61,535 bases of DNA. It comes from a virus. The notes under the pieces were generated by a model, which was not told the origin of the DNA, ran no database searches, and saw only the letters and a list, made by a program, of their open reading frames with translations. Numbering within the stretch: position 1 is the stretch's first letter; every line of letters begins with the position of its first letter. Location: IMG/VR virus record IMGVR_UViG_3300035182_000178, positions 1 to 61,535 of that record. One strand, 5' to 3'. Of this stretch, positions 20,173 to 38,152 are shown piece after piece. Made by a program: the position numbers and the translations under genes.

Positions 20173-20246
20173 TGGTGCCTCCGAACGGAATCGAACCGCT
20201 ACCTGATGATTACAAATCAACTGCACGACCTTCATGCTACGGGGGC
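20173..20246 (-). tRNA. tRNA-Thr (anticodon TGT), encoded CCA
   Basis: A complete cloverleaf can be drawn on the minus strand. Acceptor GCCCCCG/CGGAGGC has one C-A mismatch. The D-stem is GCAT/GTGC. The anticodon stem GTTGA/TCATC has one T-T mismatch around loop TTTGTAA (anticodon TGT). The T-arm is AGCGG-TTCGATT-CCGTT, with discriminator A followed by CCA. It lies inside the replication operon, between the ssDNA-binding-like gene and the Cas4-like gene. The two mismatches may mean it is decaying or edited. Confidence 0.85.
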
Positions 20247-30413: not shown

Positions 30414-32080
30414 TTTTTACCTCCATACAACTTGTTCGCGAGAAGAGTCTTGGCAACACCGTTCGTCACACCAGAAAGCGGACCACTGTTTAGACCAAGG
30501 CCATTACTGATCGCATTAGCTGCGATCCCAGATGCAGAATTCAAAGCGCCTAGCTTCATCCCGTTTGTGAAGTTCCCACCTCGTGCAAGGCTACTGAGAC
30601 CACCGGCGAGGCTATTATAGCCCAAACTCGTAGCTGCCTTACCGAGTGAACCGAAATCACTTGCAAAATTACCTGCGAGATTTCCGCCGTATGTCCCAAG
30701 ACCTGACATCAACGCTGAAGTCAGAATCTGATTACCGTCTTGTCCACGGGCAGCAGCTACAGCAGCACTCAGTAATGCCTGGTTGGCCGCAGCATTGGCT
30801 GCATTACTACCGAGGCTTACGCCAGTACCCGCCACGCTGCCGGTAGGCACATTGCTACTTGCATACGAAGCTAGGCCGTTGATAGCGTTACGCCCAACCG
30901 CGTTCCAGTCGCCTGTAGAAGCGTTCTGCGCTGCCATGAGGATAGACCCCCACGGGACACCTCCTGAGAAAACAGCTCCCAGAATGTTGCCGACAGGCTC
31001 GCCTATCTTACTGACCATGTCTAGGCGATTATCGAATCCAGCATTTTTGGCGTCTGTGTTCGTCACAAAATTTCCGATAGGGTCGTACTTTTCAGTGAGG
31101 TTATTCAGGAAACCCAGAATGCCGCCACCGCTCTTTCGTTCGGCGAACTGACTATTATTACGCTCAGGAGTCCAACTCAAGTTAGTCTTACTTGGATCAA
31201 ACACGAGCCCGTCTTGACCATTGTAGTTGTATCCGTACAAACCTTCCGTAGACGCAGGAGAGTACCAAGTGTTCGCAGTACCGGAGCGTGTCGCGTCGAA
31301 GTTACTTTTTGGAATGAAGTAGTACGGTGTCCCCTTCACACGCTGCGTTTCGTGCGCATAACCCCAAGGATCAGAATAGTACGTGTGTCCAGCCACCACG
31401 CCACGTGGATCTTGGAACCCGTTACCACCTCCTGGCTGGAGAATAGCTGGGAGAGCACCGATGACCTTGACGCCGTTGATGTCTTGACCAACATCAGGTA
31501 GTGCGTCGTACACGCCGCTCAATGCGTCTTTGTCGTAAAAATTGGTACCCTTGGCACTAGCCAGTTTATCAACTGACATATTGGCACGTTTGAATAAGTC
31601 CTGAGCCTCAGTGTCGGTCAAGGCGCCGTAACGACTAAGTGTTTCGCCCAGTTTCGTTTTGTCGTAGAAATTCAGGCCTTTATTTTGTCCGATAGAAGTC
31701 AGACCGCCGAGTAAGGGTGACAGAGAAGAAACTGTGTCTGTGTCAAGAGCGGATAGACCAGACGCCAGTTTATCCATGTCACCTGCCTTGAAATACAACT
31801 TGTTCCCAAGACCAGAAGTGTCCTTCATGTAGCTTGACCCGAGCCCAACAGTGGAAGCTGCGGCCTTGTCCTTGAAGTAGTCGTACATACCACCGAGATC
31901 ATTCTTGTCGAATGTCTGGTATCCATTCAAAGCTGTCTTTATTGCATCGTAGTCTCCAGAAGCTGTTGCACGACTATAGCTGTTCAGTGGTACGTTGTAC
32001 GTCAGCTTATTGTCACCGAGCAAAGGAGACAGCTTTTCCAACACGGCTGTCTGCTGCGGATTGAAATTTGTGATTGCCAT
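30410..32080 (-). CDS. Large virion protein, putative ejection protein
   Basis: 556 residues. The first half contains repeated motifs of about 35-60 residues around (K)GLNFYDKTKLGETLSRYGAL, TNFYDKDALSGVYDAL and similar, suggesting internal duplication. The C-terminal 180 residues are Gly/Ala/Ser-rich (SLGSNAANAAANQALLSAAV), as in membrane-active ejection proteins. Confidence 0.5.
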   Translation of the reverse strand: MAITNFNPQQTAVLEKLSPLLGDNKLTYNVPLNSYSRATASGDYDAIKTALNGYQTFDKNDLGGMYDYFKDKAAASTVGLGSSYMKDTSGLGNKLYFKAGDMDKLASGLSALDTDTVSSLSPLLGGLTSIGQNKGLNFYDKTKLGETLSRYGALTDTEAQDLFKRANMSVDKLASAKGTNFYDKDALSGVYDALPDVGQDINGVKVIGALPAILQPGGGNGFQDPRGVVAGHTYYSDPWGYAHETQRVKGTPYYFIPKSNFDATRSGTANTWYSPASTEGLYGYNYNGQDGLVFDPSKTNLSWTPERNNSQFAERKSGGGILGFLNNLTEKYDPIGNFVTNTDAKNAGFDNRLDMVSKIGEPVGNILGAVFSGGVPWGSILMAAQNASTGDWNAVGRNAINGLASYASSNVPTGSVAGTGVSLGSNAANAAANQALLSAAVAAARGQDGNQILTSALMSGLGTYGGNLAGNFASDFGSLGKAATSLGYNSLAGGLSSLARGGNFTNGMKLGALNSASGIAANAISNGLGLNSGPLSGVTNGVAKTLLANKLYGGKN

Positions 32081-33816
32081 TATGATCTCACATCACCGGG
32101 TTCGAGGTGCAGAAGTGTGCGTCCGCCTTCGTAATTACCGTCAAGACTGTTGCTCGTAATACGTAAACGAATCAGTCTACGCTGTTCGCGCATGTCAACT
32201 TTTTCTGTGGCTCTGCTAAACACGTAATCGTCGCTGATCTTATCTACACCGTTAGGGAATTCTCTTCCGATGACGTTAAGTGTCAAATCGCCTACCTGAT
32301 TAAAGTCGGGCTCAACTCTGACCAGTCGCGTGAAACGGTTAAGACCTTCCTGCTGATTAGGCTGTGCGCCGCCAGTAGGAAACCCAAAATCAGCAGTTTC
32401 AAAGAAACTCATGATCGCCGTTTCTTCTTCTCCGACTATTTTGTTGTACCCTTTTTCGTGCACATAGGCGGAGTAGTTAAGAGTAACGTCTGTACAAGTA
32501 CCGACACCACCAGATGTCAAATTAGACAACCCTTCACCAATAGTCGGTGTCTGAGTATTGTCATGCAACACGCAACGAAAAATGTTACTGCCGAACGTTT
32601 CGGCTAATGTGAACGACACCTTGGACGTCACACCAACGATATTATCACCAACAGAGAATGTCCCTGAACCAACGGTCAGAGTTACTGTCGCGTATGTCTT
32701 GTCGGACTCAGAATCTATCATCACAGGTTTTGTGAAAACCTGAGAGTAGAATCCGGCTGCACGAGGATTTGCGTTGTCATACCAGCATTTTTCACGAACA
32801 TTGTATATGACACAATGGGTGCATTCCGTGGCATCACCGAACGGGAAATACCAGTGGATTTCTCCGAAGCGCGGTACTTTCATAGCCCATACTTTTTGAC
32901 GTTGTTCGTAATTCAGGTTATCGAAGAACCAGTTCTGATTACTGTTGTTGGCTAGTTCTTGTACACGACCACTAGAATACACCAAGAAACGATCTACACC
33001 AGCCCAGAAATAGTCTCCGTCGTATTCTATCACTGAATTCTGCGACAGAATAGACGTCTGGGAAGAGATGGTTGTGAAACGGAAGATTGCACTACCTCCG
33101 ACCCACTGCATAGCGATCAATGAGTCAAGTGACCACAACAAAGCGGCTGGGCCACTAGAAGATCTGATCGGGAGACCTTTGACAACTTTTGCACCAGTTA
33201 CTCGATCAAAACCAGCATCCCCTGAACTCAACGTCTGCGGCTGATTAACATCAGACCAACCTACGAGACCATCTGAGCCAAAGTAAACGAGATAAGGATC
33301 AATACAAACAACCCCGCCGCTAACGGAAAGACCAGTGATCGGAACAAATTGCGACGTTTGATCTGCGAGCCCATAATACACCTGTTTCGTAGTTTCGTCG
33401 TCGATATTGACGAGCGCATTCGTGGCAACAGCAACAACAATTGTACCCTTGCTCCCGGCAGCGTCGTCATACATTGTATCAACAGACCAAATATGGTCAG
33501 GATTAACTGTAAATCCCGCCGGAGTACGATCTACGACGTAACCACCGAGGCCGTTCTTATCCATCGAAACCATCTCGATGAAACCAGAAGAAAATGCGTA
33601 CAGATTATTCATCAAGCCTCTAGACCACACCAGTGTCTGACGAACGGGGCCACGGAGACGACCAGTGATCTGCTGGAAACCTCCCATTTTACGAGGGCGA
33701 CCACGTTGAAAACGCACCCATTGTCCGTCACAAAAGACATCGGAATCCAGATTCGTACCGTCACGCTGGATTCCGGGCTTTGAGACTAATTGAAAGAGTT
33801 CTTTGATTTCAGCCAC
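32080..33816 (-). CDS. Tail hub/head-completion protein (P22 gp10-like candidate)
   Basis: 578 residues from GTG 33816, just after the previous stop; a TTG at 33828 is the alternative. Near residue 25 it has DGQWVRFQRGRPRKMGGFQQ, a segment seen at the start of many podoviral hub or packaged-DNA-stabilising proteins. The rest is repetitive beta structure with Trp-rich segments. Following the fibre and adaptor genes, it probably caps the portal/tail axis. Confidence 0.55.
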   Translation of the reverse strand: MAEIKELFQLVSKPGIQRDGTNLDSDVFCDGQWVRFQRGRPRKMGGFQQITGRLRGPVRQTLVWSRGLMNNLYAFSSGFIEMVSMDKNGLGGYVVDRTPAGFTVNPDHIWSVDTMYDDAAGSKGTIVVAVATNALVNIDDETTKQVYYGLADQTSQFVPITGLSVSGGVVCIDPYLVYFGSDGLVGWSDVNQPQTLSSGDAGFDRVTGAKVVKGLPIRSSSGPAALLWSLDSLIAMQWVGGSAIFRFTTISSQTSILSQNSVIEYDGDYFWAGVDRFLVYSSGRVQELANNSNQNWFFDNLNYEQRQKVWAMKVPRFGEIHWYFPFGDATECTHCVIYNVREKCWYDNANPRAAGFYSQVFTKPVMIDSESDKTYATVTLTVGSGTFSVGDNIVGVTSKVSFTLAETFGSNIFRCVLHDNTQTPTIGEGLSNLTSGGVGTCTDVTLNYSAYVHEKGYNKIVGEEETAIMSFFETADFGFPTGGAQPNQQEGLNRFTRLVRVEPDFNQVGDLTLNVIGREFPNGVDKISDDYVFSRATEKVDMREQRRLIRLRITSNSLDGNYEGGRTLLHLEPGDVRS

Positions 33817-33817
33817 A

Positions 33818-34141
33818 TCACACCCCAATGAAGCCGATGCCTTTCAGTGCCTTCAGACGAAGAGGAGCATAGCTGGAAGAAATAACTACTGACGCTGCAC
33901 CGTTGATGGTCTCTCCAGACTGCGGTGTTATGGTGACGTTGTTTGCGCCGAGTGTCCGAATAATTATAACACGCTTACCGCCCGATGCAAATGGTAAGGT
34001 GAGACTCACTGCACCGGAGGTAGCGTCTACCAGAACAATGTCGTCATTCTTGTTGATACCACCTGAAGTAGACACATTACGAACTCTCTCAAGGTCGTCT
34101 AGCAAGTGTCTGTCATCAGATGTCAATCCCGCGTCGCTCAT
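33818..34141 (-). CDS. Small beta-rich virion protein related to fibre modules
   Basis: 107 residues from 34141 (ATGA overlap with the previous gene). The second half (AVSLTLPFASGGKRVIII...NNVTITPQSGETINGAASV) is the same kind of beta module as in the N-terminal third of the long tail fibre (ITLSLTAV...GTATIDPNGSEQIDG). Likely an accessory fibre or hub protein. Confidence 0.6.
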   Translation of the reverse strand: MSDAGLTSDDRHLLDDLERVRNVSTSGGINKNDDIVLVDATSGAVSLTLPFASGGKRVIIIRTLGANNVTITPQSGETINGAASVVISSSYAPLRLKALKGIGFIGV

Positions 34142-34668
34142 ATTTTTGTCTTCAACCGAAATGACGACGTAAATTTTGCCCGTCCGTACTTTGCTCCCGG
34201 CAAGTTCCAGCCGATAAACAAGTCGATGAAGCGTGTCTTGGTGATCCAAATTGGGCGACGGTAAAGCCAGTACCCGAAGATATTTTGCCAGTAGTATTCA
34301 CCTTCCTTGATAAAGTGCGAATCACGACACCCGAACGCACCGTAGCTGATTTTGTTACCACCGTTCCGAATCAACCAACGAGTACGGTTGATGTAAGCGT
34401 AGGGGTCCGATCCAATTAGATGCTCTTCCTTCCAGCCTGAGTCACCGCCAAGATCGTTATCGATAGTGTCAAGCCATTGAAACGGTGAGAGCAGGAATCG
34501 ACGATCATAGGTGACGAACAGTGCCGCTACCGGGGAAACGATCACACATAGAATCGAGAAGATCAGATTGATCGGAAAGAGAAAGAGCCAGAGGAGTTTT
34601 TTCATCGCTCGTGTAGGAGGTTTACGGGACAAGAACGAAGCGAGAAGGTAGATCAGGTGACGCATCAT
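34138..34668 (-). CDS. Membrane-associated phage protein of unknown function
   Basis: 176 residues with a strongly hydrophobic N-terminal region (two membrane segments between residues 4 and 53) and a soluble C-terminal part rich in Trp, Tyr and Arg (GCRDSHFIKEGEYYWQNIFG). Proteins of this shape are common beside phage structural genes and have no proven role. Confidence 0.6.
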   Translation of the reverse strand: MMRHLIYLLASFLSRKPPTRAMKKLLWLFLFPINLIFSILCVIVSPVAALFVTYDRRFLLSPFQWLDTIDNDLGGDSGWKEEHLIGSDPYAYINRTRWLIRNGGNKISYGAFGCRDSHFIKEGEYYWQNIFGYWLYRRPIWITKTRFIDLFIGWNLPGAKYGRAKFTSSFRLKTKI

Positions 34669-35129
34669 AGCGTAGAAGCATACTGGATCATTTGTGTCGT
34701 TTCGGCTTCTGTCTTGTTGATACTGGCCCCAAGGGCGATAACAAAAGGATCGTCAGACCGAAACTCAGTAGCAAACGCCCAACCGTCCTTAAGTGTTTGG
34801 TTGCTTGACGACGCCACGACATCTTCAACAACTTGCCGCAAGCCCCATGCATTTAGCGCCTTGCGAATCTGCCAAGAGGTGCAACTGAACACAACAGTCT
34901 GAGGCGCTACGTAGACTGGCAGTTGCGGGGCTACGACATCTGGAAAGTCTGCACGTGTAAAACCGAAACGTTCGATTGTGGTGTTATCCTCGACAGCGCG
35001 CCACGTTTGCGCCACGTCGTCTTTTTCCAAGCGCCACAAACTGCCTGCAAGCATCGCCATAAAAGAGGCATGCGCCGGTGTCCCAGCAATTGCGTCCAGA
35101 TCAGAGCGTGTATTAATAATCTGCATCAT
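34665..35129 (-). CDS. Putative tail fibre assembly protein/chaperone
   Basis: 154 residues directly downstream of the fibre gene. The N-terminal segment SDLDAIAGTPAHASFMAMLAG with W..VEDNTTIERFGFTRADF resembles a small family encoded next to phage tail fibres. A chaperone or fibre-attachment role is inferred from position. Confidence 0.5.
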   Translation of the reverse strand: MMQIINTRSDLDAIAGTPAHASFMAMLAGSLWRLEKDDVAQTWRAVEDNTTIERFGFTRADFPDVVAPQLPVYVAPQTVVFSCTSWQIRKALNAWGLRQVVEDVVASSSNQTLKDGWAFATEFRSDDPFVIALGASINKTEAETTQMIQYASTL

Positions 35130-35134
35130 TCATC

Positions 35135-35275
35135 TCAATTAATAATCAGGTGGTCACAGACGCCCCGCGCACCTACTGAGTTGTACGAGGCTGTAGGGGA
35201 ACTATTCCAACTAGAACAACGAGAGCCCGGCTCGGTTGAATAGCCCCAGCTACAACCAAAGGTGGCGACGTTTTC
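35135..35275 (-). other. Mtd-like variable-region sequence at the fibre 3' end
   Basis: The 3'-terminal coding stretch ends with GCGCGGGGCGTCTGTGACCA followed by CCTG, strongly G+C-biased like the IMH end of diversity-generating-retroelement variable regions. The codons corresponding to BPP-1's variable positions encode Cys, Ser, Gly, Tyr, Glu, Pro, Asn, Thr and Val. By eye I found no second copy (template repeat) in the window. Confidence 0.5.
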
Positions 35276-38152
35276 CATTTGATACGTGGAACCACGCCCG
35301 CCAGTGTTGGCTGTCCAGCCGCTGGCCGCTCCTCCGCCGAAGTTGCCGCCCCAAACCCACATACAGCCAGTGGCTTGGATGACACCCCAGCGTGAAGTAA
35401 ATTTGTTCCAGGGGTTTGTCGCCCCTGTTCCGCTCACACCAGTGGTCGGTACGTCGCTGCCACCACTGGATGTTGCCTCGGTTGTACCATAAGCCAGCGC
35501 GGCGAACTCATCATAAGTCGGAGAACGTTTACCCCAAGATTGAAGCACCTCATTGGCTTCCCACCAAGTAAGCGTAGAGTACGTCGTGCTACCGTTACCG
35601 CCGAACTTGGCAGGAATTTTCGGAGGACTTGAACCGTCCGCGATGGTCACGTTATACTTACTAGTGCCATTAGTTAGGTGATCCACGCCAAGCAGGTAGA
35701 TGTCAGCCCAAAACGAATCGGCTACAAGAACCATACCACGTGGGTCTACAGCGGCCGGGCGGAAATTCAAGTCCCAGAATGAGTAGGCATTGATTGCTGG
35801 CGTAGCGTCTCCCCCGGACATGGCCGTAGCGTTTCCGCCGGGGGCGTAGTGGAAACCACCAATCTTTCGCCAGTTGCCGGCACTAGGCGGTGAGACGAAA
35901 TCGGTAGTCGCCTGAATCGTGGCATCGTCCTTGACCCAAATCGCGTAATCAGTACCGGATGTCAGGCTAGGCATGGTGATGGTGGTGTCACTGGCAAAGG
36001 TTATAGCAGTACCACCGACGACAATCTTAGTGCCGGATTTGATTGTTGCCGCACCTGCTCCGGTCTTGGTGAAAGCTACGGTAGTCGGATCAGTCTTGTA
36101 GAACAAGGTTTCCGAAGCAAGTGCGGGAAGCTGCGCCGTAGGTACCTTACCGCTTGCGTCGAGTATAGCCATCGCAGTCCACGATGATCCGTTCCACCAT
36201 TCTATTGCATTTGTTGTGCTGTTTGCCCGAGTGTCACCGAATGAAGGAGACCCCGGTCGCTGACCCGTCGTACCGCTCGGCATATGGGCTGCTCCAGTTG
36301 CAGAGTCTTTCACAACACCTGTAGAAGGACTTAAGAAGTCAGTACCAGCGGCGGCAAGCGACCATACTCCAGCAGATACTTTCGGAATACCAGACCAAGC
36401 AGAAGAGTTCTGACCCGTACCGCCGTACACGTTTCCGATCACGGAACCGTTCCACGTAGACCCTGTACCGAGCGTTTTGTTGGTGAGCGTTTCAACTCCC
36501 GTCAAGGAAGCGAAGTCGGCGTCAGAACAAGCCGTATTAAACTGCGCCAATGTCCCTGTAAGTGTGTTACTTGTCAGGTCGAGTGTCTTATTGGTGAGCG
36601 TATGAGCGGAGGAAACAGACGGTATAGTCGTTTGTCCTAATCCGTTACCTACCAAAAGGAAAAATCCGTCGCTATCCCACTGAATATCTCCGTTGACCGT
36701 GGGAGTCGGGGATACACTTTGCTTCAGGGTCAGCGTCGGAGTGGTCAGTGTCTTATTGGTCAGTGTCTCTGTCCCCGTGAGAGAGACAAAGTTATCGTCG
36801 GAAAGTGCTGTATTAAACTGAGCTAACGTTCCTGTAAGCGTGTTGCTTGTCAGGTTGAATGTTTTATTGGTCAGTGTCTGAGTGGCTGCGATGAGGGCTA
36901 GTGTGTCCGCACTGACAGCCGGGATAGTATGCTGCTGAATAGTCGAAGGACCAATCTTCGCGGATACGACCGGCGATGTGCCGTTAAAAGTAGTCCCGGT
37001 GCTCTGGACATCAACGAGAGCACTGCCAGCGACCGCTATTCCCAGTCCTGTCCCAGACTTGAACAAGCCAGTGTTGGTCTGCGAAGAAAAGTTAAGAGAC
37101 GGAGAAGCAGCAGCGCCGTCAACGATTGATATCGTTGTCGAAGCCTGAACAGACTGTGCAGAAACAACGTTTGTTCCGTTACACAGGGCAATAATACGAG
37201 ACGATTGCGGAACAGAAACCCCTGTGCCACTTGAAGTTTTCAAGGTGATAGCCTGTGTCGTTGACAACTGACTGTCAACATAGTACACTGAAACCACAGC
37301 AGGGACATTAACTGTCACAGGGGTTGCTGGATTACCGACAAAGGTCAGAAGTTTGTTCGCCACTTCTGCACTAGAGAGCGTGAATGTGCCACCTGCGGAC
37401 ACGTCTTTGACTAGTTGACTGAATTGGTAGATCGTACTCCGACCGTAACCAACTGAATACCACTCCGCACCTGAGCAGAAAAGACCGAGGGATTCGCCGG
37501 GTTGAACAGTGATTGTACTTTGACCATCGATCTGTTCGGAGCCATTTGGATCAATCGTGGCCGTACCGCTTCCTGCGTTACGGAAGAACACAAAGAAGTC
37601 ATCACCGAGGGTTGCCACTGCGGTCAACGACAATGTGATATTACCGCCGTTGTTCACCAACAGGGAGGCGCGGTGAGAAGACGTAACCGTCGTGTTTGTG
37701 CTAATGAGAGCAACAGGGTGTGATTGATTCAGAGAAGCACCAAGAGCTTTGATACCATAACCGATCAGTTGTGCTGCGCTAACAGAAGAAGCCCCAGCTC
37801 CAAACGCGATGAAACTCCACTGCCCATTATCCGTAGTATTGTCGGATAAATAGAAGTAACCGGCTGTACCTGCTGAGACAGTACCGACCGTGTTACCACC
37901 TAGATCCTTTAATGTGACAGTATTTGCGCCGACGTTCTGGACCAAGAAATCTTCGCCTACACCAGCTTCACTTGCACTTGGGAGCGTGAGATTTGCTGCT
38001 ACACCGGAAACCTTGATGATCTTCGCAACAGAAAGACTTGCACTGTCCGAATTCCAAGGCCACTCAAAAGAAACGTCGCCGGTCAATACCAGCGACAAGT
38101 AAGTGTTCTGAGAAGGCGGCACCGTACTGGAACCGAATACGTCGTTGTACAT
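35135..38152 (-). CDS. Tail fibre with Mtd-like C-type-lectin receptor-binding tip
   Basis: 1005 residues. The N-terminus resembles a virion-attachment segment. Residues 60-440 have repeated beta modules; at 430-590 the shaft has several TLTNKT-type repeats found in many fibres; then a Ser/Gly-rich stretch. The last ~50 residues (FGCSWGY, GSR, SSW, then VGARGVCDHLII) align position by position with the variable region of BPP-1 Mtd (FGG.WN.T...GSR...W...VCDHLIL). This is the C-type-lectin fold used for receptor binding and, in BPP-1, diversified by a retroelement. No reverse transcriptase is visible here. Confidence 0.85.
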   Translation of the reverse strand: MYNDVFGSSTVPPSQNTYLSLVLTGDVSFEWPWNSDSASLSVAKIIKVSGVAANLTLPSASEAGVGEDFLVQNVGANTVTLKDLGGNTVGTVSAGTAGYFYLSDNTTDNGQWSFIAFGAGASSVSAAQLIGYGIKALGASLNQSHPVALISTNTTVTSSHRASLLVNNGGNITLSLTAVATLGDDFFVFFRNAGSGTATIDPNGSEQIDGQSTITVQPGESLGLFCSGAEWYSVGYGRSTIYQFSQLVKDVSAGGTFTLSSAEVANKLLTFVGNPATPVTVNVPAVVSVYYVDSQLSTTQAITLKTSSGTGVSVPQSSRIIALCNGTNVVSAQSVQASTTISIVDGAAASPSLNFSSQTNTGLFKSGTGLGIAVAGSALVDVQSTGTTFNGTSPVVSAKIGPSTIQQHTIPAVSADTLALIAATQTLTNKTFNLTSNTLTGTLAQFNTALSDDNFVSLTGTETLTNKTLTTPTLTLKQSVSPTPTVNGDIQWDSDGFFLLVGNGLGQTTIPSVSSAHTLTNKTLDLTSNTLTGTLAQFNTACSDADFASLTGVETLTNKTLGTGSTWNGSVIGNVYGGTGQNSSAWSGIPKVSAGVWSLAAAGTDFLSPSTGVVKDSATGAAHMPSGTTGQRPGSPSFGDTRANSTTNAIEWWNGSSWTAMAILDASGKVPTAQLPALASETLFYKTDPTTVAFTKTGAGAATIKSGTKIVVGGTAITFASDTTITMPSLTSGTDYAIWVKDDATIQATTDFVSPPSAGNWRKIGGFHYAPGGNATAMSGGDATPAINAYSFWDLNFRPAAVDPRGMVLVADSFWADIYLLGVDHLTNGTSKYNVTIADGSSPPKIPAKFGGNGSTTYSTLTWWEANEVLQSWGKRSPTYDEFAALAYGTTEATSSGGSDVPTTGVSGTGATNPWNKFTSRWGVIQATGCMWVWGGNFGGGAASGWTANTGGRGSTYQMENVATFGCSWGYSTEPGSRCSSWNSSPTASYNSVGARGVCDHLIIN

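Follow-up and report, generated by a model that had tools for sequence, protein, structure and literature searches.

The tail fibre encoded by the viral contig IMGVR_UViG_3300035182_000178 ends in what looks like the variable lectin tip of BPP-1 Mtd, with no retroelement beside it. This raises the question of whether the tip is used in a fixed form, is varied in trans by a host or prophage DGR, or is left over from a cassette that was lost. We analysed the whole 61,535-nucleotide stretch of this record (the window) and compared it with 40 IMG/VR records holding an Mtd homologue; Mtd loci are labelled L001 and so on. The features of the window are collected in Table 1.

Table 1. Features of the fibre locus and its neighbourhood in the window
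Feature	Coordinates	Strand	Basis or remark
Chimeric tail fibre gene, 1005 aa	35135..38152	-	ORF; N-terminal and C-terminal Mtd homology
Fibre residues 1-394, N-terminal, presumably virion-attaching	36971..38152	-	Common to RW-like kin with differing tips
Fibre residues 395-680, shaft with TLTNKT-type repeats, and junction	36113..36970	-	ORF; PHROG matches weak
Fibre residues 681-1004, Mtd receptor-binding module	35141..36112	-	Mtd homology
Counterpart of the DGR variable region (FGCSWGYSTEPGSRCSSWNSSPTASYNSVGARGVCDH), template now absent	35150..35260	-	Comparison with relatives
10-bp G/C run at the IMH position	35161..35170	-
5-bp gap; relatives have hairpin-avd-TR-RT (about 1.6 kb) here	35130..35134	-
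bbp4-like gene, 154 aa, probable Mtd accessory/assembly protein	34665..35129	-	Homology
DUF7338 protein	34138..34668	-	Absent between fibre and next structural gene in phage RW
Small protein, weak T4 gp9/10-like similarity	33818..34249	-	Extra relative to phage RW
Virion structural protein, RW gp068c homologue	32080..33828	-	Directly after the fibre gene in kin

The C-terminal end of the fibre ORF reads ...GSRCSSWNSSPTASYNSVGARGVCDHLIIN, with the same GSR..W...GARGVCDHL end as BPP-1 Mtd. The Mtd module matched the crystallised BPP-1 Mtd variants with E-values of 1e-123 to 1e-125, and the tip is 58-59% identical to BPP-1-type genomes over the full 325 aa. This homology is full-length and includes the intermediate and lectin domains. 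The fibre also matched Pfam mtd_2nd (2e-18) and PHROG 11262 (tail protein, 6e-113). The sequence-only reading, which had the fibre C-terminus following BPP-1 Mtd, read the motif correctly. Judged by these alignments, the C-terminus is a true BPP-1 Mtd homologue and the resemblance is not due to chance. An Mtd-like lectin fold is predicted for the tip from homology to solved structures, and the tip presumably binds a receptor; an AlphaFold2 run on the Mtd module (14 sequences) gave a poor model with a mean pLDDT of 42.7. The rest of the fibre belongs to another phage lineage. Residues 2-394 are 29-43% identical to kin including gp069c of Caulobacter phage RW, and residues 612-672 had weak PHROG matches. 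H6 and H7, T7 records whose tip is of the Mtd type, are apparently the engineered fusions of T7 and BPP-1 fibres described in PMC7077284 and were left out.

The window tip is a member of the Mtd family but has no DGR: reverse transcriptase (RT), Avd, template repeat (TR) and hairpin are all absent. No RVT_1 domain was detected in the window, tblastn of the window found neither Avd nor RT, and an adenine-tolerant search of the window for a TR gave a best match no better than shuffled sequence, so the absences noted from the letters and reading frames hold. Exact-pattern scans found no matching TR or same-species record within their scope, outside of which near-identical records may lie.

The junction downstream of the fibre gene indicates what is missing. 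The bbp4-like gene begins 5-8 bp past the fibre stop, and its product is 50% identical to that of L001, where the gene follows RT, and 45% identical over the N-terminus to BPP-1 bbp4, which follows brt. Because the bbp4 homologue starts 5 bp past the fibre stop, it is exactly the avd-TR-RT cassette that is missing. Among annotated phages, the bbp4-like gene was found only in Mtd-bearing Bordetella phages. The bbp4-like family adjoins Mtd downstream with or without a cassette, and it is a candidate dedicated Mtd accessory protein. The AlphaFold2 model of the window protein is confident (pLDDT 95). It had no significant match in a PDB fold search. The proteins that it resembles are uncharacterised ones of phages, and a putative tail-fibre-assembly protein and a baseplate protein gave weaker matches. 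Presumably, bbp4 helps folding or assembly.

The hairpin is missing as well. In most cassette-bearing loci a GC-rich hairpin (5-9 bp stem, 4-nt loop) stands at the mtd stop, with folding z-values of -3 to -5 in L001, BPP-1 and L004; by a strict perfect-stem test, the intact loci L007, L038, L203 and L242 and some intact loci from genomes have none. A GC-rich hairpin with a 4-nt GRNA loop is absent downstream of the window variable region (VR), and the sole inverted repeat near the fibre stop is AT-rich with a 20-nt spacer. In BPP-1, the hairpin is required for efficient homing, and a broken stem lowers tropism switching more than 1000-fold (PMC3240598).

A DGR was sought in the relatives, and 23 of the 40 Mtd-bearing IMG/VR records were found to hold an RT. 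The VR and TR of these RT-bearing relatives differ at adenines only, typically with 0 other mismatches over 80 nt, and the TR reads ...GGNWNNGSNSGSR.SNWNNSPTNSNNNIGARGVCD. The closest homologue of the window is the viral contig L001 (IMGVR 3300000185_000016), whose tip is 81% identical. Unlike the window, L001 has an intact hairpin, avd, TR and RT, in the gene order mtd-hairpin-avd-TR-RT-bbp4, and its TR/VR mismatches over the matched 80 nt are at adenines. The VR of this intact DGR (L001:840-957) is one codon shorter than the TR, which suggests an unusual deletion during or after retrohoming. Bacterial genome contigs were also searched; a single-protein query gave no relatives, whereas an alignment query gave 26. 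Bacterial genomes of Haematospirillum (L231-L233) and Jiella (L234, L235, L237, L240, L247) have Mtd homologues but no DGR RT anywhere in the sequence searched. In Haematospirillum the bare mtd-bbp4 pair is retained, and strain H4485 has it twice.

The window VR retains some features of a DGR target. Its G/C run is as long as that of cassette-bearing L001, so the G+C-rich, IMH-like 3' end proposed from the sequence is there as a 10-bp run, but the run doubles as code for the conserved G-A-R-G and is accounted for by coding sequence. Nine of the ten window codons at TR-asparagine positions can be derived from AAY, which is non-significant alone (chance p 0.08). Among themselves, cassette-bearing loci have a third-position divergence of 0.31 in the VR and 0.5-0.6 in the trunk. 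The divergence of the window VR from most of these loci is 0.54-0.65, the same as its trunk, and against L001 the two values are 0.417 (VR) and 0.415 (trunk). The mean residual of the window VR is 4.5 sd above the cassette-bearing loci, the sd being descriptive and not a probability as the rows are related. The GC3 of the window VR (0.51) is down to the trunk level (0.57), while in L004 the trunk has 0.54 and the VR 0.84. L003 shows the same VR drift as the window, and more strongly. The bare loci L018, L190 and L202 show no synonymous drift, and their cassettes look to have been lost recently.

These results bear on whether a DGR in a host, a prophage or a coinfecting phage diversifies the tip in trans. 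The retained VR-like sequence and 10-bp G/C run would suit such a target, and in BPP-1 the IMH and hairpin are enough to retarget the DGR onto another gene (PMC3240598). However, the window lacks the hairpin in cis, and drift at its synonymous sites has been free, unlike in templated regions, where such sites are conserved. None of the TRs of 19 relatives fits the window VR: they leave 28-57 non-adenine mismatches over the final 105 nt, and the highest count is inflated by the 3-nt deletion in L001. Whole records of phage kin hold no RT, and nine bacterial genomes that carry Mtd but no cassette next to it had no DGR RT elsewhere. The earlier suggestion of diversification in trans is disfavoured by these data, and we consider it highly improbable.

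Alternatively, a DGR cassette may sit in a part of the genome that is absent from the contig. The record is a linear virus contig that lacks end repeats, so that a few kb of terminal sequence may be missing, and in a 69-kb relative the homologues of the two window ends lie about 6 kb apart. Against this location, every intact viral Mtd locus with enough sequence has its cassette immediately downstream of mtd, and no RT was found in the whole records of kin identified by terminase or by the neighbouring structural gene. The absent hairpin and drifted synonymous sites also speak against a cassette elsewhere in the genome, which is very unlikely in our estimation.

The phylogeny points to loss. 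In a 55-row Mtd tree, the window groups with L001, BPP-1, L002 and L190 (support 100/98) and is nested among cassette-bearing loci. The cassette state requires 16 changes on this tree, at least 10 of which are forced by supported branches. Compared with the nearest intact relative, five loci have clean deletions: 1332 bp in L195 against L193 (6-bp overlap at the junction), 1086 bp in L002 against BPP-1 (10-bp overlap at the junction), 1459 bp in L026 against L011, 1146 bp in L025 against L014 and 1582 bp in L201 against L199. A 3' RT remnant remains ahead of bbp4 in L002, L025, L026 and L195. The BPP-1-like L002 (IMGVR 2811995291_000003) retains avd; its TR and most of its RT are deleted. It is mainly on the tree that we base the view that the window VR was probably once written by a DGR.

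The opposite polarity would have the bare mtd-bbp4 pair as ancestral, with cassettes inserted later in other lineages, so that the window tip never had a DGR. Bare pairs on several unrelated backbones are in line with it; several bare loci on other backbones have nothing detected in common with the window beyond the tip and bbp4. The nested position of the window and the clean deletions in five relatives, several with RT 3' remnants, argue against it. Moreover, cassettes, each with its matching TR, would have had to enter repeatedly at precisely one place between these two genes, which is harder than losing them repeatedly. Bare ancestry is unlikely, if a little less so than the two preceding alternatives.

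One pair of close relatives differs in cassette state. L193 and L195 (IMGVR 3300008005_000257 and 3300025842_000142) differ at 2 of 870 trunk sites (99.8% identical outside the VR), and L193 has an intact cassette whereas L195 has none. Of 120 VR sites, 15 differ between the two, and 14 of these fall on codon positions 1-2. The L195 tip would have been diversified and then left without its mutator, or the L195 record may be misassembled. In addition, L030, L032 and L033 have no cassette and no bbp4, and their tips differ mainly at template-asparagine sites; the related L038 has a cassette. Either loss after recent diversification or activity in trans may explain these three loci.

The tip and the backbone of the window have different relatives. 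The window spans about 61.5 kb and includes genes for terminase, portal, capsid and replication. Its gene order is close to that of RW-type Caulobacter phages (62 kb); it also carries a tRNA-Thr(TGT) gene (20173-20246, minus strand). Phage RW shares the N-terminal fibre region and the gene neighbourhood, but its gp069c has another tip and there is no bbp4-like gene. In RW, gp068c follows the fibre directly, whereas bbp4 and two more genes stand in between in the window. The kin examined for fibre tips have tips other than Mtd, and no Mtd was found in kin identified by the neighbouring structural gene. Since the fibre N-terminus is that of an RW-like backbone whose kin carry other tips, the Mtd tip and bbp4 would most simply be an acquired module.

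Mtd proteins without a DGR are already known in cultured phages. Synechococcus phages S-CBS1 and S-CBS3 and Marinomonas phage P12026 are like the window in having Mtd-domain proteins in whole records without RVT_1; their Mtd proteins are only 36-39% identical to the window tip, and no bbp4 homologue was found in their records. The window is closer to BPP-1 and has its bbp4 homologue at the same place in the operon, but it differs from BPP-1 in lacking avd, TR, RT and hairpin and in having its tip fused to a 680-aa fibre. The point of interest is the recurrent cassette loss, of which we found no description between mtd and bbp4 in open-licence papers. We tentatively raise the possibility, in which our confidence is low, that cassette loss is a repeated evolutionary step and more than simple decay: the DGR finds a working tip, a hairpin-to-bbp4 deletion locks it, and the bare mtd-bbp4 pair spreads as a fixed tip across unrelated backbones, the window being one case.

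The window tip is very probably a fixed receptor-binding tip and the relic of a lost DGR. The earlier suggestions of a lost cassette and of a fixed form are jointly well supported by the mtd-bbp4 pair kept without avd-TR-RT, the missing hairpin and the drifted VR synonymous sites. The tip is most likely fixed because the mutating machinery is missing and the docking signals have decayed, and we infer that it is fixed in the population. In the proposed history, the N-terminus of the chimeric fibre would attach to the RW-like virion, and the Mtd C-type-lectin tip would have come together with the bbp4-like gene. The tip VR would once have been written by a BPP-1-type DGR, and the avd-TR-RT cassette with its hairpin would since have been deleted, be it ahead of the transfer, in its course or afterwards. 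As it stands, the tip would be inherited vertically like any ordinary receptor-binding surface and would change by mutation and recombination only.

Whether a locus is a live DGR target or a relic can be read from synonymous drift, from the hairpin and from the pair of genes on either side of the cassette site. With L193 and L195, what a phage pays and gains by having a mutator in its fibre can be put to a direct test in laboratory phages. Members of the Mtd family have repeatedly lost the mutator while keeping the receptor-binding tip.
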